Below, in pieces: positions 3,722-45,104 of a DNA stretch of 47,647 nt. Numbering within the stretch: the first letter of the stretch is position 1; each line of letters starts with the position of its first letter. A program made the translations under genes and the position numbers. Source of the DNA: Acidobacteria bacterium UBA7540 (GTDB lineage Bacteria > Acidobacteriota > Terriglobia > UBA7540); contig DLMI01000125.1 of NCBI GenBank assembly GCA_002478145.1, positions 1 to 47,647 of the forward strand, written 5' to 3'. The notes under the pieces were generated by a model that was not told where the DNA came from, searched no databases, and worked only from the letters and a program-made list of their open reading frames with translations.

Positions 3722-4903
3722 TTATTGCAGGTTTTCAAATATCCCTGCTGCTCCCATGCCACCGCCCACGCACATCGTGACCATACCGTACTTGGCGCTT
3801 CGCCGCTTCAACTCAGCGAGCAGGGTAGCCGTGAGTTTGGCGCCGGTGCAGCCCAAGGGATGCCCCAGGGCGATGGCGCCGCCATTGACGTTCACTCGTT
3901 CGAGGTCCAACTCTGCCAGCTTGATCACCGCAAGCGCCTGGGCCGCGAACGCCTCATTCAATTCGATTACTGCGATATCCGCGAGCTTCAGGCCCGCCAA
4001 CTTCAGCGCCTTGGGGATGGCGTAAACCGGGCCGATGCCCATCTCCTCCGGCAGGCATCCCGCCGCCGCGAAGCTCACGAACCTGGCCAGCGGTTTCAGT
4101 CCTAGCGCCTTCGCCTTCTCCGCCGACATCACCACGGCTGCAGCCGCCCCGTCACTCATCTGCGAGGCGTTCCCCGCCGTAACGGTACCGTGGGCGTGGA
4201 ACGCAGGCTTCAAATTGGCCAGCGCATCCAGGGAAGTATCAGCCCGCGGTCCCTCGTCGGTGTCGAACCGGATCTTGCGCGTCTGCGGCTTATCCTTGCC
4301 GTTCAGGCTGACCTCCACCACCTCGAGCGGAACGATCTCCTCTTGGAATTTGCCTTCCGCAATCGCTGCCAGCGCCCGCTGATGGCTGCGCAGCGCAAAC
4401 TCATCCTGTTGCGGGCGCGTGATGTGGTGTTTTCGTGCCAGGTTTTCAGCCGTCAACCCCATGCTGAGGTACGCGTCAGGATAATGCTCCACCAGGTAAG
4501 GGTTAGGCGCGAAATGATATCCGCCCATGGGAATCATGCTCATGGTTTCCGTGCCGCCGGCAATGACCACCTCGGCGAACCCCGCCATGATGCGTTCGGA
4601 AGCGATGGTGATGGCCTGAAGACCCGAGGAGCAGAAGCGATTGATCGTCATCGCCGAACAGCTTACCGGCAGGCCGGCCCTGAGCGAGGCGACGCGCGCC
4701 ACGTTGTTTCCCTGTTCAGCCTCGGGCATCGCGCAGCCGAGGATCACGTCTTCAACCTCGTTAGGGTCAATCGCCGGGGCCCGCCTCAGGACCTCCTGAA
4801 TGGCGGCGGCGGCCATGTCATCCGGTCGCGTGTTGCGCAGCGTTCCCCGCGGCGCCTTGCCCACCGCAGTCCGCGCGATGGATACAATTACTGTTTCCTT
4901 CAT
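3722..4903 (-). CDS. fadA: Thiolase (acetyl-CoA acyltransferase)
   Basis: The 393-residue protein performs thiolytic cleavage of 3-ketoacyl-CoA, or the reverse condensation. The nucleophilic cysteine is in [11 protein letters not shown] (about residue 91), the active-site histidine in [10 protein letters not shown], and the second cysteine in CVGGGMGAA near the C-terminus. Two ATG codons are in frame, at 4909 and 4903. An AGGGG ribosome site sits directly against the first and 6 bases from the second, so I chose 4903. It follows the four-helix-bundle gene with a short gap and precedes the acyl-CoA dehydrogenase, in an operon headed by the two-domain hydroxyacyl-CoA dehydrogenase. This context favours a degradative thiolase over a biosynthetic acetoacetyl-CoA thiolase. 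Confidence 0.92.
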
Positions 4904-4917
4904 GTTCATCCCCTGAC

Positions 4918-5322
4918 TTATGACATTGGTGATTTGCGATTGGTGATTGGCGATTGCGCGGTTGTTCGCGACGCTTGAAAGATTCGCACCAACTCGTTCA
5001 CCTCTGCCAGCAGGCTTTCCAGCTTGGATCTTTTGATAATGCCTGCATCGATGATCAATTCCAACCAGAAAGCCGTTTCGTCAGCCTCTTCAACCGTGAT
5101 CCCGATCTTCGAGATAAAGTCAGCGCGCGACCTGGCCCGGCATGCACTCCGGTAGTTGGCCGCTACCGCTGTTCCCGAGCGGAGAACCTGCCGGCCCAAG
5201 ATGCGGGCCTCTTCCGTTTTTGGCAGGGCGCGAAACAAGTTGATAACCCGCAGCGCAAACTCTTTAGTCCTCCGCCTCAGGTCTTCAGGACTGGTAATTG
5301 TCTGGGAGTTTTTGCCAATCAC
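4918..5322 (-). CDS. Four-helix-bundle protein (23S rRNA intervening-sequence protein family)
   Basis: This 134-residue protein has the hallmarks of the four-helix-bundle family first seen in 23S rRNA intervening sequences: [35 protein letters not shown], then [19 protein letters not shown]. Its biochemical role is unknown, though related proteins (Avd) serve diversity-generating retroelements. The GTG start and the first codons fall inside an array of 7-base repeats. The last dozen residues ([12 protein letters not shown]) are encoded by a second such array in opposite orientation. It therefore looks like a cassette dropped between the fatty-acid genes rather than a beta-oxidation gene. No retroelement reverse transcriptase or rRNA gene is nearby. 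I am confident of the family and uncertain of expression. Confidence 0.85.
4924..4956. repeat. Heptamer array, left flank of the four-helix-bundle cassette
   Basis: Period-7 repeat on the GATTGGT theme (units CATTGGT, GATTTGC, GATTGGT, GATTGGC). It begins with CATTGGTGATT, the exact reverse complement of the outer end of the array at 5315-5355, so the two arrays bracket the gene as inverted repeats. It encodes the C-terminal tail of the four-helix-bundle protein. Confidence 0.8.
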
Positions 5323-5355
5323 AAATCACCAATCACCAATCACGAATCACCAATG
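5315..5355. repeat. Heptamer array, right flank of the four-helix-bundle cassette
   Basis: Period-7 repeat on the plus-strand theme ATCACCA (ATCACAA, ATCACCA, ATCACCA, ATCACGA, ATCACCA). Its outer 11 bases, AATCACCAATG (5345-5355), are the perfect inverse of 4924-4934. It contains the GTG start of the four-helix-bundle gene and ends 3 bases from the stop codon of the upstream hydroxyacyl-CoA dehydrogenase gene. Confidence 0.8.
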
Positions 5356-5358
5356 CCG

Positions 5359-7776
5359 TCAGTTCCTCAGCGGCTTGCCGTGTTTCAACATGAATTGGAT
5401 GCGCTCGCTGGTCTTCTTCTGGCCGCAGAGGCTTATGAAGGCCTCCCGTTCCAAATCCAGCAGGTACTGTTCGGAAACGAGCTGTGGCGAAGTGAACTCG
5501 CCCCCGCCGGAGAGGATCTTCGCCAATTGAGTTCCGATCACCACGTCATAGTCGGAGATGTACTCGGCGCGGCGCATCAAGTGCAATCCCAGTTTCATTT
5601 TGACGAAAGCCGCCTGGCCGAGGACTCGAACGTCCTGGCGCGGCCTGCCCGGACGGTACCCCAAGCGGGCCAAGTCGAGTGCCAACTGCTTGGCGTCTGC
5701 GAGCTGCCGGTCGCGGTTCATGCTGATGGAGTCCTTCGCGGAAAGGTAGCCGAGCTTGCGCGCTTCCTCGGCGCTGGAGGAGACCTTGGCCATGCCGATA
5801 TTCAAAAAGACTTCCTTGACGAATGTAAATGGGTCGGCCTCCGGATCGGCAGGCACGGCATCCATGGCGCGCACTAACATTTCCTTCGTCCCGCCGCCCG
5901 CCGGAATCAGGCCCACGCCGAATTCCACCAGACCCAGGTAAGTCTCCGCCGCCGCGCGAACGCGCGTGGCGTGTAGAACCATCTCCGTTCCCCCTCCCAG
6001 CGTCAGGCCAAAGGGAGCGGCCACGACGGGTTTGGGCGCATACTTGAGCGCCATGTTGGCGTTCTGGAAGGCGCGCACCGCCCTGTGAAGGTCGTCCCAC
6101 TCGCCTTCCTGAATCGTCATCAGGACCATCATCAGGTTCGCGCCCACGCAGAAGTTCGCCGCTTGGTTCCCAATCACCATGGCGTCAAAGCCCTCGTTCA
6201 AGGTTTTCAGCCCGGAGTGAATCATCTGCACCGTGTCAGCCCCAACGGTGTTCATCTTGGAATGGAACTCGAGGCAGACCACGCCCTCGCCAAGGTCGAT
6301 GAGGCTTGCGCCGGCATTCTTCCTGATTTCCTTTTTGCGGGCTTTGAGTGACGACAGCAGCAGGACGCCCGGCTTATCTTTGATGTCGCGGAACGCGCCG
6401 CTCCCGAAATCGAAGTAGCTACGAGCGCCGTCGCCTGACGCGTAGAAGCTCTTCTTCCCGGTGGCGAGGAGTTTTTCGACCAGGGGGGGTGTTGATCGGC
6501 CTGCCTTCTTCCAGGCATCGACGACCTTCTCAATCCCCACCGCATCCCAAAGCTCGAAGACGCCGCACTCCCAGTTGAAACCCCACTTCATGGAATTATC
6601 AATGGAGACGATGTCGTCCGAAATCTCCGGCACGCGCATCGCGGTGTAGTGGAACGTATCGAAGAGAACCTTCCGGTAGAACTGCCCGGCGCGCTCAGGT
6701 GATTGGCAGAGCGTCCTCACCCGCTCCCGCGTGTCCTCGATATTGCGGGCCATCTCAAGCGAGGGGAACTTCGGCTTCTGGCGCGCGCGATAATCGAAGG
6801 TCTTGAAATCGAGCGTGAGAATTTCGCTCTCTTCCCCGCCTTCCCTCCCCTTAACTTTCTTATAAAAGCCTTGTCCGGTTTTCTCTCCCAGCAGCCGGCG
6901 CTGCATCATCTGCTCAATAAAATCGGGAAGCTGGAAGAGGTTGCGCCGTTCATCATGGGGCAGCGACTCCGCAAGGTTCTTGACAACCTGCGCCAGGACA
7001 TCGAGGCCGACGATATCGAGCGTCCGGAAGGTTGCGGACTTCGGCAAGCCCATGGCAGGGCCAGTGAGCGCGTCGATTTCCTCAATCGTGTAGCCATCCT
7101 CCTGCATGGCGCGCAGGACGTTCAGGGTTGTGAACGTCCCGATGCGGTTGGCGATGAAATTGGGCGTGTCCTTGGCGATGACGATCCCCTTGCCCAGCAC
7201 TACCTCGCCGAAGCGCGAGACCGCCTCGACAACCTCTGGCAGCGTCTCGGCGACGGGAATAATCTCCAGCAACTTCAGGTAGCGAGGAGGATTGAAAAAG
7301 TGCGTGCCCAGAAAATGCCGCCGCAATTCTGCGCTGAAGCCTTCGAGGATGCTGCCGAGGCTGATGCCCGAGGTGTTGGAACTCACCACCGCACCTGGCG
7401 CGCGCACTGCCATAACCTTTTCGAGCAATGTCCGCTTGATGCTGCGGTCTTCCGTCACGGCCTCGATGATCCAGTCACAGTCTTTCAGCCAGGTTAAGTT
7501 GTCCTCGAAGTTGCCCAGGGCGATCATCCGAGCGGCCTCCGGGACGAAGAACGCTGCCGGCCGCGACTTCAGCGCCGCCTCGAGCCCGGCTTGCGCAAAG
7601 CGGTTGCGAACCTTGGCGTCGCCGAGCGTCAAGCCTTTGGCTTGCTCCTCAGGGGTCAGCTCGGGAGGGACGATATCGAGCAGAACAGAGGGAATTGAAG
7701 CGTTGGCAAGATGAGCAGAAAGACGAGCCCCCATCGTTCCTGCGCCTAGTACGGCCACTTTACGAATGTCACGCAC
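5359..7776 (-). CDS. 3-hydroxyacyl-CoA dehydrogenase / enoyl-CoA hydratase, two-domain
   Basis: This 805-residue protein carries both middle steps of beta-oxidation. The NAD-binding dehydrogenase is N-terminal (GAGTMGARLSAHLAN near residue 11, then FFNPPRYLKLLEI and the TPNFIANRIG segment). The crotonase-fold hydratase is C-terminal (FCVGANLMMVL, LGGGTEMVLHA, GLIPAGGGTKEML). This order, dehydrogenase first, is opposite to E. coli FadB and resembles the FadN type. An in-frame start exists at 7845, but those 23 extra residues are unlike the family. The GTG at 7776, with a GGGGG purine stretch upstream, places the Rossmann motif at the expected distance. It heads the minus-strand operon with the thiolase and acyl-CoA dehydrogenase. 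Confidence 0.93.
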   Translation of the reverse strand: MRDIRKVAVLGAGTMGARLSAHLANASIPSVLLDIVPPELTPEEQAKGLTLGDAKVRNRFAQAGLEAALKSRPAAFFVPEAARMIALGNFEDNLTWLKDCDWIIEAVTEDRSIKRTLLEKVMAVRAPGAVVSSNTSGISLGSILEGFSAELRRHFLGTHFFNPPRYLKLLEIIPVAETLPEVVEAVSRFGEVVLGKGIVIAKDTPNFIANRIGTFTTLNVLRAMQEDGYTIEEIDALTGPAMGLPKSATFRTLDIVGLDVLAQVVKNLAESLPHDERRNLFQLPDFIEQMMQRRLLGEKTGQGFYKKVKGREGGEESEILTLDFKTFDYRARQKPKFPSLEMARNIEDTRERVRTLCQSPERAGQFYRKVLFDTFHYTAMRVPEISDDIVSIDNSMKWGFNWECGVFELWDAVGIEKVVDAWKKAGRSTPPLVEKLLATGKKSFYASGDGARSYFDFGSGAFRDIKDKPGVLLLSSLKARKKEIRKNAGASLIDLGEGVVCLEFHSKMNTVGADTVQMIHSGLKTLNEGFDAMVIGNQAANFCVGANLMMVLMTIQEGEWDDLHRAVRAFQNANMALKYAPKPVVAAPFGLTLGGGTEMVLHATRVRAAAETYLGLVEFGVGLIPAGGGTKEMLVRAMDAVPADPEADPFTFVKEVFLNIGMAKVSSSAEEARKLGYLSAKDSISMNRDRQLADAKQLALDLARLGYRPGRPRQDVRVLGQAAFVKMKLGLHLMRRAEYISDYDVVIGTQLAKILSGGGEFTSPQLVSEQYLLDLEREAFISLCGQKKTSERIQFMLKHGKPLRN

Positions 7777-7945
7777 GGTTTGCCCCCAAGGATGTCGGCA
7801 AGTACCGAACCGGTCATTATGTGGGAGGGATTCACGCGGGGTCAAGGCGCAGAAGGCAGGAGGGAGGAAAAGGGGCTGATTTTTTGGGCGGGAAAGCCTA
7901 TATTGGGCAGTCGTCCTTCATTGCCACGTTTCATGGAGGTAAACG

Positions 7946-8977: not shown

Positions 8978-9060
8978 CTGGGGACTGGGTGCTGGGGACT
9001 AGGGACTGGGGAGAAGTTCGGTTCTTGTCCCCCAGCCCCTAGCCCCCAGTCCCCAGCCCC
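8978..9060. repeat. Inverted heptamer arrays (GGGACTG theme) between kdgK and eda
   Basis: A period-7 array (GGGACTG, GGTGCTG, GGGACTA, GGGACTG) is followed, after a short loop around 9013-9022, by its near-complement (CCCCCAG, CCCCTAG, CCCCCAG, TCCCCAG). The RNA could form a GC-rich hairpin with about 35-base arms between the two cistrons. The array ends about 8 bases before the eda ribosome site. Confidence 0.85.
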
Positions 9061-10027: not shown

Positions 10028-11782
10028 ATGACGAGAGAGGAGCGGCTCGAGGCCATCCGACACCGGCGGGGGGTTTCGGTGCTCATCGTGGGAGGCGGGA
10101 TTAATGGCGTTGGCCTGCTTCGTGAATTGGCTTTGCAGGGAGTGGACGCGCTTCTGGTGGAAAAATCCGATTTCTGCTCCGGCGCCAGTTCTGCTTCCAC
10201 GCGCATCATTCACGGTGGGCTACGATACCTCGAAAACGGCGAATTTCGCCTGGTCAAAGAAGCCTTGCGGGAGCGCAACCGGCTGCTCAAAAACGCGCCG
10301 CATTATGTAAGGCCTCTCCCCACCACCATTCCAATCTTCAGTTGGGCAGATGGCCTGTTTTCGGCCCTGGGAAAGTTCCTGGGCTTCAGGGTGCGGCCCA
10401 GCGATCGAGGAGCCTTGCTGTTCAAAATTGGATTATCCTTGTACGACCTCCTCGCAGGAAATCAAGCGGTCTTACCCGCTCACCAGTTCAAGTCTCGTCA
10501 TGTTTCCCTGGCCGCGCGCCCTCAGCTCCACCCGGAGATCGTTTGCACCGCAATCTACTACGATGCCTGGATCAGCTATCCCGAACGGCTCTGCCTGGAA
10601 CTCGTTCTGGATGCAGAGAGCCAAGGTTCAGGCGCGTACGCGTTGAATTATGCACGCCCCAAAGGCGCGAAGGGAGATACGGTTGTCCTGGAAGATGAGA
10701 TTTCCGGTCGGACACTTGAAATCAAGCCCAGGATCGTGGTGAATGCCAGTGGGGCCTGGATCGATTTCACCAATGGCGCCTTCGGGCGGCAGACTCAATA
10801 TATCGGCGGCACCAAAGGCTCGCACATCGTGCTTGATCATCCCGAACTGCTGGCCGCGACCAAAGGGCAGATGCTCTATTTTGCCAATGCGGACGGGCGT
10901 ATCTGCATCTTTTATCCCTTTTATGGGAAAGTGATTGCGGGTTCCACGGACATACCTGTTACGGATCCCGAAACGGCGTTTTGTGAGGAAGATGAGGTGG
11001 ACTACATCCTGGAGTCCGTGCGCCAGGTTTTCCCCGCCCTCCGGCACCTGCGGGACCGGTCCAACATTGTTTACCGATTCTGTGGAGTCCGCCCACTGCC
11101 CCGCAGTGATTCCTCCACTCCGGGAGAGATCAGCCGAGATCATAGCTGCGCGGTTATCCCGGCGGGGAATGGAATTGACTTTCCGGTTTATTCCCTGATC
11201 GGCGGGAAGTGGACCACCTTCCGTGCCTTTGGCGAGCAGGTGGCGGACAAGATTCTCAACCACCTGGCAAGGCCACGCCTGACCAGTTCCGCCGATTTGC
11301 CCATTGGGGGCGGCAAGGGCTACCCGCAAACGGCGGTGGAGAAGAGTGAATGGCTGGCTTCCCTGGAGCGCAAGACTCGGCTACCAATCGGCCGTTTGAC
11401 GGCCTTGCTGGACCGGTATGGGACTCGAGCGGAAGGCCTGGCACATTTCATCAGCGCTGGGCCTGACCAGCCGCTGCGTTCGTTGCCCGAATACACCCGG
11501 CGCGAAATTCAATTCATGGCGTCGCAGGAGAGCATCGTGCACCTGGATGACCTCGTCTTGAGACGGACCATCATGGCTCTTTTGGGCCAGTTGAGCCTTG
11601 ATCTGTTAGAGGAGCTGGCTGTCGTGCTGGCGCCGGTGCTGGCATGGTCGCAGGAAATAACCCAGCAGGAAATCGAGCGCACGGTGAAGCTCTTGAGCGA
11701 AGTCCACGGCGTAACGCTCAATGACTCAATGAATCAATCACTCAATTCTCTTACCCCATCACCAAGCCGCCATTCACGTTGA
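10028..11782 (+). CDS. glpD: FAD-dependent glycerol-3-phosphate dehydrogenase
   Basis: This 584-residue flavoprotein oxidises sn-glycerol-3-phosphate to dihydroxyacetone phosphate at the membrane face and delivers electrons to quinone. The N-terminal FAD motif is LIVGGGINGVG (about 20-30). It is followed by the family signature FCSGASSASTRIIHGGLRYL and later FYPFYGKVIAGSTD and YRFCGVRPLPRSD. A C-terminal GlpD domain follows, ending near ELAVVLAP. The final residues (NDSMNQSLNSL) are encoded by an 8-base tandem repeat and are not part of the conserved fold. The end overlaps the convergent SDR gene by 32 bases. A GGGGAGAGG ribosome site precedes the ATG. No glycerol kinase or facilitator is nearby. 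Confidence 0.93.
   Translation: MTREERLEAIRHRRGVSVLIVGGGINGVGLLRELALQGVDALLVEKSDFCSGASSASTRIIHGGLRYLENGEFRLVKEALRERNRLLKNAPHYVRPLPTTIPIFSWADGLFSALGKFLGFRVRPSDRGALLFKIGLSLYDLLAGNQAVLPAHQFKSRHVSLAARPQLHPEIVCTAIYYDAWISYPERLCLELVLDAESQGSGAYALNYARPKGAKGDTVVLEDEISGRTLEIKPRIVVNASGAWIDFTNGAFGRQTQYIGGTKGSHIVLDHPELLAATKGQMLYFANADGRICIFYPFYGKVIAGSTDIPVTDPETAFCEEDEVDYILESVRQVFPALRHLRDRSNIVYRFCGVRPLPRSDSSTPGEISRDHSCAVIPAGNGIDFPVYSLIGGKWTTFRAFGEQVADKILNHLARPRLTSSADLPIGGGKGYPQTAVEKSEWLASLERKTRLPIGRLTALLDRYGTRAEGLAHFISAGPDQPLRSLPEYTRREIQFMASQESIVHLDDLVLRRTIMALLGQLSLDLLEELAVVLAPVLAWSQEITQQEIERTVKLLSEVHGVTLNDSMNQSLNSLTPSPSRHSR
11720..11747. repeat. Octamer array (AATGACTC/AATGAATC theme) inside the 3' end of glpD
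   Basis: Period-8 units AATGACTC, AATGAATC, AATCACTC, AATT lie within the glpD reading frame and code for its nonconserved tail. The same 8-base word family recurs at 21093-21130 and 45012-45104. Confidence 0.75.
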
Positions 11783-21092: not shown

Positions 21093-21130
21093 AATTGAAT
21101 CATTGATTCAGTGAGTCATTGATTCATTGA
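21093..21130. repeat. Octamer array between actC and actD
   Basis: Period-8 units on the ATTGATTC theme (ATTGAATC, ATTGATTC, AGTGAGTC, ATTGATTC, ATTGA) fill the spacer from just after the actC stop to 5 bases before the actD start. They leave no room for a conventional ribosome binding site. The word family is shared with 11720-11747 and 45012-45104. Confidence 0.8.
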
Positions 21131-29432: not shown

Positions 29433-31430
29433 ATGGGTGAAGAACAGCCTCAGGGAGCGACGGGCAAGCTGGAACAGTTGGCTCGAGCTAGATTCGGGGA
29501 GACCTTAACGCCGTCCGAGCTCAAACTCATCCGCGCTGCGCCAAACGCCCCGCCAAAAAGCTATTGGGCGCAGTGCGGCCCAAACCTCAACGATGAGGAC
29601 CCTAACAACGACCCCAGCAAGGCAGACAAAGAATGGGGAACGGAGCGCGAGATTCGCGCCGAGGTGATTCGTTGGCTCTGCGTTGACGAGAAGGCCAAAC
29701 ACGAGGTAGACCCGAAGGGGATCTGGGTGTATGGCGCTAAGGTCACCGGGAAGCTTGACCTGTCTTCCGTCATCGTCCCTTTTCCCATTGTGCTGCGGCA
29801 TTGCCGCCTGATGCAGGATGCCCGGCTCTTCAATTCTCAACTTCCGCTCCTCAGTCTGGAAGGCAGTTGGGTGCGGGTGATAAGCGCCGACAGGCTGGAT
29901 GTCGAGGGCGACGTTTTTCTGCGCAACGGATTCCGTGCTGAGGGCGAGCTGCGGCTGCTGGGGGCACAAATTGGGGGCAATCTGGACTGCTCCAGCGGGA
30001 AGTTCATTAACTTCCCCGGAGATGCTTTAAGCGCCGATGGCATGAATGTTGACGGCAACGTTTTGCTCCGCGACGGGTTTCATGCCGAAGGCGCGGTGCG
30101 GCTGCCGGGAGCGCAGATCGGAGGCAACCTTGAGTGTGACGGAGGCACGTTCGTGAACCCCCCCGGAAGAGCTTTGTTCGCCGACCGCATCCATGTTCAC
30201 GGCGACGTTTCCCTGAGCGACGGGTTTCGTGCGGAAGGTGAGGTGCGGCTGCCGGAGGCGCAAATCGGAGGCAATCTTGGGTGCGACCGAGGCAGGTTCA
30301 TCAAGCCCTCGGGGAAAGCTTTGAATGCCGACGGCATCGATGTTCGGGGCTACGTGTTTTTGCGCAACGACTTTCGCGCCGAAGGCGAGGTGTCGCTGCC
30401 GGGAGCACAAATCGGAGGCGATCTCGACTGCATTGACAGCACGTTCACCAAGCTCACCGCTTACTCCGCGACTGTAAGGGGCAACTTCTGGTGGCGGGGC
30501 TTGAAGGATGCGGCGGGCGCAACGCTCAATCTCGGAAACACTTCGGTCGGCTCGATCATCGACGACGAGAAGAGCTGGCCGACGAAGGGAAACCTCCTTC
30601 TCGACGGCTTTGTGTACGGTCGCATCTCCGAAGGACCGACGAAAGCAAAAACCCGCCTCGAGTGGCTTGCCCGTCAGGATCCCTTCAAACCCCAGCCCTA
30701 TCGTCAACTCGCCAAAGTGCTGCGGGAGAGGGGAGACGAGGATGGCGCGGTGACGGTTCTTGAGGAAATGGAAAGCCTGCGCAGGAAGGAGGAGGACCGT
30801 ACCGCGGTCGCACGCCTCGAGAGCTGGGCTTTCAAGGAATCAATCGGCTACGGGTACGACCCCGCGCGGGCGGTTTGGGAAATTGTGGGCCTCAGCGCCC
30901 TGGCATGGATAGTCTACAGAAGGACTTACCTTGCCGGAAACATCGTGCCTACGGAGAAGGACGCCTACGAATCCTTCAGGCGCGACGGTCAGCCTCCGCC
31001 GCACTACACGCCGTTCGCACCGCTGGTCTACTCGGTGGAGAATTCGCTGCCTCTGGTGAAACTCGGACAAGAGGACAAGTGGCATCCCGAACCCGATTCA
31101 GGGAGTGCCTTGTCGCGAAGGAGCAATTGGCCGACCCGACTTGCCGGCCCGCGTACTTGGACACACTTCCAGTGGCTGCAGCGCCGCTTGATTCTTCGGG
31201 GGCTACTTCGCGATCCAGTACCGAAAGGAGAACCCCCGCGGCTGCAGCGCTTCCTGGTGTTTTGCGGCTTGCAGCCGCACCCGGATCGGGAAGCCGCGCG
31301 GTCGCGCCCCAGCCGATGGCTTACGTCGCCGCGGTTCGTGCGGTGGTTCCTGTGGATTCAAATTTTGCTGGGCTGGCTGTTGGCCACTTTATTCCTCGCG
31401 GGCCTGACAGGCATCGTCCGCAAGGAATAG
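29433..31430 (+). CDS. Membrane protein with four 49-residue internal repeats (beta-helix-like)
   Basis: The 665-residue protein has three parts. Residues 1-150 are soluble and include IRAEVIRWLCVDEK. Residues 150-345 contain four repeats of exactly 49 residues, each built on LsADgidVdGdVfLrdgFrAEGeVrLpgAQIGGnLdC, which suggests a beta-solenoid. After a helical linker (about 395-455), a C-terminal membrane region carries AVWEIVGLSALAWIVYRR, the motif YSVENSLPLVKLGQ and a final helix (LLGWLLATLFLAGLTGIVRK). Proteins of this plan are sometimes annotated 'membrane-associated oxidoreductase', without evidence I know of. The ATG has GGAGG 5 bases upstream. The function is unknown; the C-terminal part recalls small membrane-channel modules. 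Confidence 0.8.
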   Translation: MGEEQPQGATGKLEQLARARFGETLTPSELKLIRAAPNAPPKSYWAQCGPNLNDEDPNNDPSKADKEWGTEREIRAEVIRWLCVDEKAKHEVDPKGIWVYGAKVTGKLDLSSVIVPFPIVLRHCRLMQDARLFNSQLPLLSLEGSWVRVISADRLDVEGDVFLRNGFRAEGELRLLGAQIGGNLDCSSGKFINFPGDALSADGMNVDGNVLLRDGFHAEGAVRLPGAQIGGNLECDGGTFVNPPGRALFADRIHVHGDVSLSDGFRAEGEVRLPEAQIGGNLGCDRGRFIKPSGKALNADGIDVRGYVFLRNDFRAEGEVSLPGAQIGGDLDCIDSTFTKLTAYSATVRGNFWWRGLKDAAGATLNLGNTSVGSIIDDEKSWPTKGNLLLDGFVYGRISEGPTKAKTRLEWLARQDPFKPQPYRQLAKVLRERGDEDGAVTVLEEMESLRRKEEDRTAVARLESWAFKESIGYGYDPARAVWEIVGLSALAWIVYRRTYLAGNIVPTEKDAYESFRRDGQPPPHYTPFAPLVYSVENSLPLVKLGQEDKWHPEPDSGSALSRRSNWPTRLAGPRTWTHFQWLQRRLILRGLLRDPVPKGEPPRLQRFLVFCGLQPHPDREAARSRPSRWLTSPRFVRWFLWIQILLGWLLATLFLAGLTGIVRKE

Positions 31431-33952: not shown

Positions 33953-34220
33953 AGTGCCCTGAGTCAGAAGTTCGTTGAATAATTCAGCCCCGACTTGTCG
34001 GGGCGAAAGAATGTAGCCCAGGGCGCAAGCCGTGGGTCAGCGAGCCCTCCCTCACCCCCGTCCCCTCTCCCGCCCGAGCGGGAGAGGGGTGGCGAAGGCG
34101 GGGTGAGGGTCCTCCCCCAGGGCTTGCGCCCTGGGCTACAATCTTCCGCCCCTGACGGGGCTGCGAAAAGACCGCCCGCATGAGGAAGACTTTGTAAGCG
34201 AACTTCTGACTCAGGACACT
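33953..34220. mobile_element. MITE-like element with 22-base terminal inverted repeats
   Basis: The ends AGTGCCCTGAGTCAGAAGTT (33953-33972, continuing CG) and CGAACTTCTGACTCAGGACA (34199-34218, continuing CT) are inverse with one mismatch over 22 bases. Within them lies a second inverted pair, 33986-34031 with 34121-34162 (AGCCCCGACTTGTCGGGGC against GCCCCTGACGGGGCT, and GTAGCCCAGGGCGCAAGCC against GGCTTGCGCCCTGGGCTAC). A third pair at the core is of the CCCTCTCCCGC / GCGGGAGAGGG type. There is no transposase, so it is non-autonomous. Confidence 0.78.
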
Positions 34221-34475: not shown

Positions 34476-34652
34476 GCGGGAATGTTATTGAAAACAAAGG
34501 ACCGCTGTGGAAAAAGGCCGAAGAAGCGGGAATGTTATTGAAAACAAAGGACCGCTGTGGAAAAAGTGGGAACGAAGCGGGAATGTTGTTGATTACAAAG
34601 GAGATAAGCGCAGAAAGCGGGAATGTTATAGAAAACAAAGAGGATAATCGGT
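34476..34652 (+). repeat. Four-copy direct repeat upstream of the VOC gene
   Basis: Units begin with GCGGGAATGTT at 34476, 34526, 34577 and 34617, so spacings are 50, 51 and 40 bases. The first two are identical for about 41 bases; the third and fourth keep a core of about 25 bases ending in ACAAAG. The last unit runs directly into the AGAGGA ribosome site (34639-34644) of the VOC gene. Each unit contains an ATG, and short overlapping frames are open across the array. Confidence 0.85.
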
Positions 34653-35051
34653 ATGAAAAGAGTTAGTGGGCTTGGCGGAATATTCTTCAAGGCTGACCAT
34701 CCCGAGAAACTCTATGCGTGGTATGAGAAGCATCTTGGCTTGCAGCGTCAGGCGCAGGAAGCAGTGGTTTTCAATTGGCGTCAAGCCGACGATCCAGAAA
34801 AATCCGGCATGACCGTCTGGGCGATCTTCCCGAAGGATACGAAGTATTTCGACCCCAGCCGCTCCGGGTTCATGATGAACTTTATTGTGGAAGATTTGGA
34901 CGGGTTGCTGGCCGCGCTCCGCGAAGAAGGCGTGGAGGTCGATCCAAAGCGCGAGGACTACGATTACGGACGCTTCGCCTGGATCATGGATCCCGAGGGC
35001 AACCGTATTGAACTCTGGGAGCCGCCCAAAAAGAAGCAGAGTGACGAGTGA
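34653..35051 (+). CDS. VOC-family (glyoxalase/bleomycin-resistance-like) protein
   Basis: The 132-residue protein is a single vicinal-oxygen-chelate domain: GGIFFKADHPEKLYAWYEKHLGL at the start and the paired module IVEDLDGLLAALREEGVEV ending in AWIMDPEGNRIELWEPP. Members include lyases, dioxygenases and drug-binding proteins, so substrate is open. The likely metal-ligand glutamate is in RIELWEP. The ATG has AGAGGA 8 bases upstream. The stop codon and the last residues (KQSDE) fall in a 7-base repeat array shared with the convergent DUF1080 gene. Confidence 0.85.
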   Translation: MKRVSGLGGIFFKADHPEKLYAWYEKHLGLQRQAQEAVVFNWRQADDPEKSGMTVWAIFPKDTKYFDPSRSGFMMNFIVEDLDGLLAALREEGVEVDPKREDYDYGRFAWIMDPEGNRIELWEPPKKKQSDE

Positions 35052-35177
35052 CAAGTGATGAGTGACGAGTGACGAGCAAAAAAGAGTGACGAGCGACGGA
35101 TGGGTAATGAGTGACGACGAGCAAGGTTGGCTTCTATCCTCCGCTCGTCATTCGGCACTTATCACTTGTCACTGCTC
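35040..35177. repeat. GAGTGAC heptamer array at a convergent gene junction
   Basis: Period-7 units GAGTGAC, GAGTGAC, AAGTGAT, GAGTGAC, GAGTGAC run from 35040. Further degenerate units lie at about 35084-35120, and an inverse segment (CACTTATCACTTGTCACT) at about 35156-35173. The array supplies the stop codons and final residues of both flanking genes. Confidence 0.8.
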
Positions 35178-44935: not shown

Positions 44936-45011
44936 CCCGCAGTGCCAGTCTATGACGGACGATCGTCCAAAACCTCGCGCAGGGTGCGGCGCTATAGTAA
45001 TTTTGGATTGA

Positions 45012-45104
45012 CCCATTGAATCATTGATCCATTGATTCAATGAAAGGCCGTATCACTCGTGACTCTGCAAATGATTCAATGAACCAATGAATCAATGAAT
45101 AAAT
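45012..45104. repeat. Pair of octamer arrays in opposite orientation downstream of typA
   Basis: The first array (about 45012-45043) has ATTGAATC, ATTGATCC and ATTGATTC units. The second (about 45069-45104) has AATGATTC, AATGAACC, AATGAATC and AATGAATA units, its near complement. The RNA could fold into a long AU-rich hairpin between typA and the following minus-strand gene. The word family is the one seen at 11720 and 21093. Confidence 0.8.

Follow-up and report, generated by a model that had tools for sequence, protein, structure and literature searches.

The window, meaning the whole 47,647-nt stretch of DNA that was analysed, contains a small gene situated between genes for a fadB-type 3-hydroxyacyl-CoA dehydrogenase and a fadA-type thiolase. 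The gene is bracketed by two tandem heptamer arrays in opposite orientation, which together with it make up the putative element described here. Three pairs of inverted arrays without a gene are found elsewhere in the window. These features are as follows:

4924..5355, minus strand: whole element, from outer array end to outer array end, 432 nt
4918..5322, minus strand: four-helix-bundle protein gene (PF05635 / TIGR02436), 134 aa, GTG start at 5322
5315..5355, minus strand: 5′ arm, ~5.7 units of ATTGGTG (sense strand), outer end at 5345-5355
4924..4956, minus strand: 3′ arm, ~4.6 units, inverted relative to the 5′ arm, outer end at 4924-4934
5359..7845, minus strand: upstream gene, fadB-type 3-hydroxyacyl-CoA dehydrogenase / crotonase, 3 nt from the element
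3722..4909, minus strand: downstream gene, fadA-type thiolase, 14 nt between its ATG and the element
8978..9060, no strand assigned: gene-less inverted heptamer pair, gap of 16 nt, a candidate non-autonomous relative
35039..35173, no strand assigned: gene-less inverted heptamer pair, gap of 79 nt
45007..45104, no strand assigned: gene-less inverted octamer pair, gap of 26 nt

The open reading frame of the element matches PF05635 at 64.4 bits and TIGR02436 at 89.4 bits, and phmmer aligns the encoded protein with PDB 2rld_A (8e-23). PF05635 is the sole Pfam match in the element, and no catalytic domain was found in the helix-bundle protein. The outer 11 bases of the 3′ arm (4924-4934, CATTGGTGATT) are the exact reverse complement of those of the 5′ arm (5345-5355, AATCACCAATG). 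As tandem repeats of period 7, the arrays span 4925-4956 and 5315-5354. The GTG start lies within the 5′ array, the C-terminal tail is encoded by the 3′ array, and the TAA stop (4918-4920) falls just beyond it. The initial annotation is borne out on each of these points, having described a four-helix-bundle gene between hydroxyacyl-CoA dehydrogenase and thiolase genes, flanked by two opposite period-7 arrays whose outer 11 bases are perfect inverse copies and which supply the start codon and the C-terminal tail, with the stop codon just outside. The best inverted match between the flanks of the gene is 29 of 32 nt (score 23), compared with a top score of 12 among 2,921 random placements in the window using 120-nt flanks, and in the predicted fold of the transcript a long stem closes the whole element (z = -7.0, 100 shuffles). 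By analogy with the Nostoc comparison described below, the ends of the element are probably the ends of its arrays. The best relatives of the window fadB belong to Terriglobia and other Acidobacteria, with 64-78% identity.

Several other features are present in the window. Unpaired octamer arrays with the unit ATTGATTC/ATTGAATC lie at 11717-11746 and 21094-21130, and on visual comparison this unit is similar to the arms of an element that carries a gene in another genome (L179). A tandem repeat of period 147 occupies 29907-30419 (3.5 copies), a 50-nt repeat is located at 34476-34623, and positions 34116-34162 match the Acido-Lenti-1 RNA of Rfam at 45.7 bits.

The window protein is not conserved at the fadB-fadA junction of distant relatives, a result that the initial annotation had named as speaking against its proposal; a tblastn search (E 1e-5) with this protein against 80 fadB loci returned no match. 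A profile built from the collected copies identifies one PF05635 gene among the 80 loci, at the same junction in a more distant relative (L017). This gene contains an in-frame stop and is bracketed by inverted arrays of another heptamer, and its product is ~20% identical to the window protein; given this low identity and the different unit, it looks like an independent arrival. Both fadB and fadA are readable in 11 relatives (L001-L007, L009-L011 and L016), seven of which have a spacer only, of 82-181 nt (L001, L002, L003, L006, L007, L011 and L016), while the spacer of L010 is 5 nt. In the remaining three, the junction holds an unrelated secreted-type gene of ~230-270 codons (L004, 8418-9245; L005, 6623-7412; L009, 8406-9259), suggesting that it tolerates different insertions. 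The initial annotation had asked whether junctions without the gene show a clean empty site. The short spacers are not all pristine: in L001 the spacer consists of a gene-less pair of inverted heptamer arrays, and in L011 it carries a heptamer array on one side. The closest relative found for the window protein (66% identity) is encoded in another genome between genes for a thiolase and a hydroxyacyl-CoA dehydrogenase paralogue, and is accompanied by octamer arrays.

PF05635 genes were sought in 15 genomes reached via the fadB loci, 13 of which were positive, with up to 19 matches each, some of them fragments. From the 117 matches 105 were taken, the 12 weakest (≤38.2 bits) being left out, and 103 of these had usable flanks. 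Within flanks of 250 nt, the best ungapped inverted match scores at least 14 in 74 of the 103 acidobacterial copies and in none of 840 control intervals, these being random intervals of the same contigs and not intergenic ones; the inverted arrays that had been proposed as a mark of homologues are thus present around most of them. At a score of at least 12 the counts are 85 copies and 15 controls, and a period of 7 (score of at least 8) occurs on both flanks in 62% of copies and 0% of controls. The other 29 copies score below 14, genomes G003, G005 and G014 (eight copies, one with short flanks) have none that reaches 13, and period 8 is found chiefly among low-scoring acidobacterial copies. 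At L090 (G005, contig C140), a long heptamer array is confined to one side of the PF05635 gene, with a score of 105 versus 4.

Direct matches between flanks score at least 14 in 11 of the 103 copies and in one of the 840 controls. Arrays serving as a pre-existing landing site would leave direct, not inverted, flanks, and this candidate was rejected given that just these 11 copies have them. Long direct repeats between flanks (score 39-104) are also seen at four plasmid loci (L237, L238, L240 and L249), which gives the impression of a block duplication spanning the gene. Direct matches of either kind are not predicted by a simple hairpin model.

A second set of 46 genomes, mostly from other phyla and some acidobacterial, yielded PF05635 matches in 23. 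From 100 matches 29 loci were examined, four of which had short flanks, and 14 of the 25 usable copies reach an inverted score of 14 (0 of 200 controls), two of the 14 with hexamer arrays. Among 15 copies from plasmids of Cyanobacteriota, Chloroflexota, Bacteroidota, Spirochaetota and Bacillota, 14 reach this score, counted with no separate control and with slightly wider flanks (300 nt plus 30-60 nt of gene ends, as for viral loci). Their arms match at up to 39 of 39 positions, and the sole exception is one Bacteroidota copy with a score of 11. The 15 scored copies come from 26 plasmid records; further plasmid records comprised H29-H31 (from the 26), the empty-site records H37, H38 and H41, and three of 46 others. 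On contigs classed as viral, three of four loci have inverted arrays scoring at least 14, and a phage collection contains two PF05635 records. Individual copies from an alphaproteobacterium, a gemmatimonad and Trichormus show the same pattern, and a class-wide search around genome G048 gave matches in two of 21 genomes (L215 and L216). As judged from sequence, this comparison shows the gene and the inverted arrays to belong together in many phyla.

The converse scan, which helps to offset the use of random and not intergenic controls, covered 1.35 Mb, including 347 kb of contigs chosen for carrying the gene. Where the arms of an inverted array pair are 150-1500 nt apart, nine of ten pairs hold a PF05635 gene, seven of the nine being in the chosen contigs, compared with none of 15 pairs with a shorter gap; two of 11 PF05635 genes lie outside any detected pair. 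Arrays also occur without a gene. In 347 kb of genome G002, there are 40 arrays of period 7 and 15 of period 8, compared with 5, 4 and 3 of periods 6, 9 and 10, the arms of nine PF05635 copies being included in these counts. Away from the PF05635 genes, 25 of 39 G002 arrays match a gene-bearing arm at a score of at least 14, counting arms of any of the genomes and not of its own only, compared with 8.7% of column-permuted arrays (n = 390).

The repeat unit varies between copies and matches between the two arms of one copy. Over 74 copies, inter-arm identity is 0.918, compared with 0.788 between adjacent units of one arm and 0.80 when the arms are shifted by whole units, and the best shifted register is exceeded in 46; part of the inter-arm excess reflects selection, because it was the best register that was scored. 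Shuffling the order of units in one arm lowers the mean score from 20.5 to 18.3 (73 copies). The observed score exceeds the mean of the shuffles in 53 of the 73 and is individually reached by at most 5% of shuffles in three, and with so small a drop the match in register over all copies is modest. Matching arms that are themselves irregular are a stronger sign of whole-arm copying, and are found at L131, with 34 of 35 positions identical between arms versus 0.43 within, and at L180, with 33 of 33 versus 0.31. The lengths of the two arms give a Spearman coefficient of 0.23 over all copies (p 0.054).

Co-variation of protein and unit was assessed over 82 copies, using pairs without detectable outer-flank homology and excluding L151, which has a match without periodicity. 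The unit is shared on the same strand in 38% of the 37 pairs with a protein identity of at least 0.7 (5% on the opposite strand), compared with 0.2% of the 1,591 pairs with an identity below 0.3 (Mantel r 0.38, p 0.0005), although diverged orthologous flanks may have slipped past the homology filter of this test. The co-variation suggests that gene and arrays travel or evolve together. Many copies lie at loci common to species whose proteins are 54-78% identical, indicating that elements can stay put for long periods. The layout is kept without the unit in the orthologous pairs L082/L084 and L157/L158, while L138/L140 keep the unit. With a median dN/dS of 0.11 over the 28 pairs with finite dS (of 134), the helix-bundle protein is, by this measure, under purifying selection. 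Under a crude ORF rule, 49 of 88 copies are co-directional with both neighbours, seven are opposite to both and 32 are mixed.

Of particular interest are comparisons between related cyanobacterial plasmids. In Nostoc sp. C052, the element of pC052_A replaces 188 bp that are present in pC052_D, in C057 p057_H and in ATCC 53789 pNsp_a. Homology ends at position 1440 of L245 (1430 versus pNsp_a) and resumes at 1863, so that the breakpoints lie at most ~10 nt from the outer array ends. No target-site duplication was seen at this single resolved site, which, with 188 bp lost, is a replacement and not a clean insertion. The flanks are 90% and 99.8% identical to pC052_D, and since they are not equally close to one donor, recombination probably took part.

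At another Nostoc site (L255-L257), a homologous element has AATTCGC in place of AATTCGT in both arms, and L255 has exactly one 7-nt unit fewer than L256 and L257, again in both arms. The elements of L255 and L256 are identical at 441 of 442 positions, compared with 271 of 300 and 272 of 300 in the adjoining flanks; the other two pairs show 0.980 and 0.982 in the element versus 0.90-0.95 in the flanks, the wider right flank holding an alignment break. The L255/L256 pattern suggests that homing-like replacement took place recently, or that a recombination tract has the element at its centre. Between elements at different sites, homology stops at the arrays. Comparison of the copies thus shows that the unit tends to be common to elements with similar proteins and, in one orthologous set, that the two arms changed together by one unit.

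In the 69-kb Dolichospermum plasmid pAfl69, a pattern search locates ten AATTCGT tandem sites, all within 6.4 kb, two of which are the arms of an element. The other eight AATTCGT/AATTACG sites lie inside or at the end of helicase and methylase genes, where most of the in-gene arrays read as (ITNYELR)n peptides (L258, 26031-33603), and the methylase is annotated as two ORFs. Four operons orthologous to that of pAfl69 lack a PF05635 gene at the junction and contain no period-7 array; in one of the four, from Planktothrix, the methylase carries an insertion of a different repeat. Near acidobacterial elements, extra arrays of the same unit account for 4 of 43 flank arrays versus 0.55 expected, and since this enrichment is mild, pAfl69 with its dense satellites is not typical. 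The proposal of a mobile cassette of ~430 bases with array ends therefore holds as to size (432 nt) and as to the array brackets, which are general among copies, while we infer its mobility from comparisons, namely one well-resolved replacement and one operon with satellites.

The best explanation of these sequence comparisons, to which we assign a probability of roughly two in three, is that the gene and its two arrays form one small selfish mobile cassette, the ends of which are copied from each other and the protein of which would be a non-enzymatic nucleic-acid-binding partner. Such a cassette, of ~430-530 bp, would have terminal inverted repeats of a short tandem unit, usually of 7 nt, sometimes of 8 and rarely of 6. 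It would settle in gene junctions, mostly co-directional with both neighbours, and so could be transcribed from the operon. When DNA or RNA is single-stranded, the complementary arms may fold into a hairpin, host replication or repair would then copy one arm onto the other, and host machinery might occasionally paste the hairpin or a piece of an array into a junction that is close by or new. The role of the helix-bundle protein may be to bind its cognate arrays and promote annealing or template switching. A Xanthomonas member of the family is described as a homopentameric ring (PMC4990558, introduction), and a pentameric ring that reads the ~7-nt period is speculation. A role in RNA, such as excision by RNase III as in rRNA intervening sequences (IVSs), may coexist with copying of DNA.

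An element acting at the RNA level alone, like the 23S rRNA IVS, in which the arms form a stem and RNase III cuts the segment from the operon transcript, is possible but rather unlikely. Selection for pairing, and not copying of DNA, would then keep the arms matched, and spread would be rare and passive. The Coxiella IVS has the same protein family and the same layout of an ORF between complementary ends (PMC4990558), the predicted stem closes the whole window element (z -7.0), and the bias in orientation, with 49 copies co-directional with both neighbours versus seven opposite of 88, is of the kind expected. Selection for pairing in sense-strand RNA also predicts that G·U mismatches markedly outnumber A·C mismatches, and the counts of 64 versus 46 lean that way, though not decisively (p 0.10). 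However, this explanation does not readily account for the whole-unit change in both arms of L255, for arrays inside genes or for elements opposite to both neighbours (L244, L247, L248 and L250). Generic intergenic slippage, with small genes lying between heptamer arrays by chance, was rejected as highly improbable: heptamer repeats are abundant in the intergenic DNA of many bacteria (PMC4692102, PMC4679880) and the main controls were random and not intergenic intervals, but inverted matches outnumber direct ones (74 versus 11 of 103), the unit follows protein similarity, none of the 840 control intervals reaches the threshold, and nine of ten long-gap pairs hold a PF05635 gene.

A further reading, which is improbable, takes the protein for a host factor, either Avd-like or associated with defence, and the arrays for its regulatory hairpins (an attenuator or RNA switch), passed on together with the operon. 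Such a role would be consistent with purifying selection on the protein, as it would with the frequent location of plasmid copies in defence operons (cas2/cas1, hsdS/hsdR, DUF1156/Swt1-HEPN, helicase/methylase), and PF05635 is the commonest Pfam in the aggregated data of a survey of immune families, where it is read as Avd-like (PMC10053308). Other neighbours are metabolic, however, as are the fad genes of the window, the gene is absent from the same junction in relatives and reaches up to 19 matches per genome, and L082/L084 and L157/L158 keep the layout but not the unit, although L138/L140 do keep it. The copies in defence-type operons (L237, L240-L242, L244, L246, L247 and L251) may inflate the 'immune association' score of PF05635.

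PF05635 proteins are common and often annotated, without a known role, and heptamer arrays are likewise common and of unknown origin; the linkage of the two gives both a testable explanation. It also advises caution in reading a PF05635 gene beside defence genes as a sign of immune function (PMC10053308), since the gene may be a hitch-hiker in the operon. If gene and arrays do form one mobile cassette and the protein acts on the arrays, DNA hairpins would be copied without an element-encoded transposase, and inverted ends would be kept matched while the repeat evolves freely.

Among known systems, RAYT/REPIN elements are defined by an HUH (Y1) transposase gene. As generally understood, they likewise combine a gene in inverted repeats, dispersed gene-less repeats that match, and a protein lineage that follows the repeat lineage. 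The element described here differs in having no transposase gene, encoding a helix-bundle protein instead, and in having tandem heptamers rather than single palindromes; the division of labour resembles that of RAYT and REPINs, without a transposase in the element. Unlike MITEs and insertion sequences, it has no terminal inverted repeats common to all members, and the unit is shared mainly among similar proteins. Rickettsia palindromic elements are repeats inserted in-frame into coding genes, like the in-frame insertions of pAfl69, which differ in being tandem heptamers beside a gene-bearing element.

Heptamer simple repeats have been described in Nostoc (GGGGA(C/T)T), Xanthomonas (GGGAATC) and Beggiatoaceae (TAACTGA) (PMC4692102, PMC4679880), including 70 and 75 inverted close heptamer pairs in two Xanthomonas genomes (PMC4692102). 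The passages on the inverted heptamer pairs of Xanthomonas in Rehm et al. (2015) name no protein partner, and the term 'four helix' is absent from the texts of PMC4692102 and PMC4679880. Among the matches listed from the open-access full-text literature, no paper links PF05635 genes with heptamer arrays, and the proposal made here differs from the published accounts of these repeats in giving them a protein partner. Avd of diversity-generating retroelements is reported to be homologous to PF05635 in sequence and structure (PMC10053308); the annotated plasmid neighbours of PF05635 genes that were read include no reverse transcriptase.

The element shares with the IVSs of 23S rRNA a PF05635 (S23p) ORF, a length of ~430 nt, complementary stem-forming ends and a sporadic distribution, and the IVS of Coxiella is excised by RNase III (PMC4990558). 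In contrast to an rRNA IVS, the window element lies between fadB and fadA, and Rfam detects no rRNA in the window. When 100 of the 104 acidobacterial loci (those other than L181-L184) were scanned with Rfam, no PF05635 copy fell in rRNA, the sole rRNA match being a 16S gene ~740 nt from the copy in L146. Tandem 6-8-mer ends, copy-specific units, up to 19 matches per genome and gene-less arrays further distinguish the array-bracketed element from IVSs, the latter being compared by their description. The chances appear evenly poised that these elements constitute a transposase-free class of mobile element spanning ~10 or more phyla (from record titles), in which arm copying and array spread are driven by a helix-bundle protein with specificity for its own tandem repeat of 6-8 nt, and that this class is the source of many unexplained bacterial heptamer repeats, with rRNA intervening sequences as one offshoot. 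Since its nearest relative, the IVS, is defined by a location in rRNA that is not that of the present element, we rate the latter as an array-bracketed element outside the known classes, of which the rRNA IVSs may prove to be one branch.
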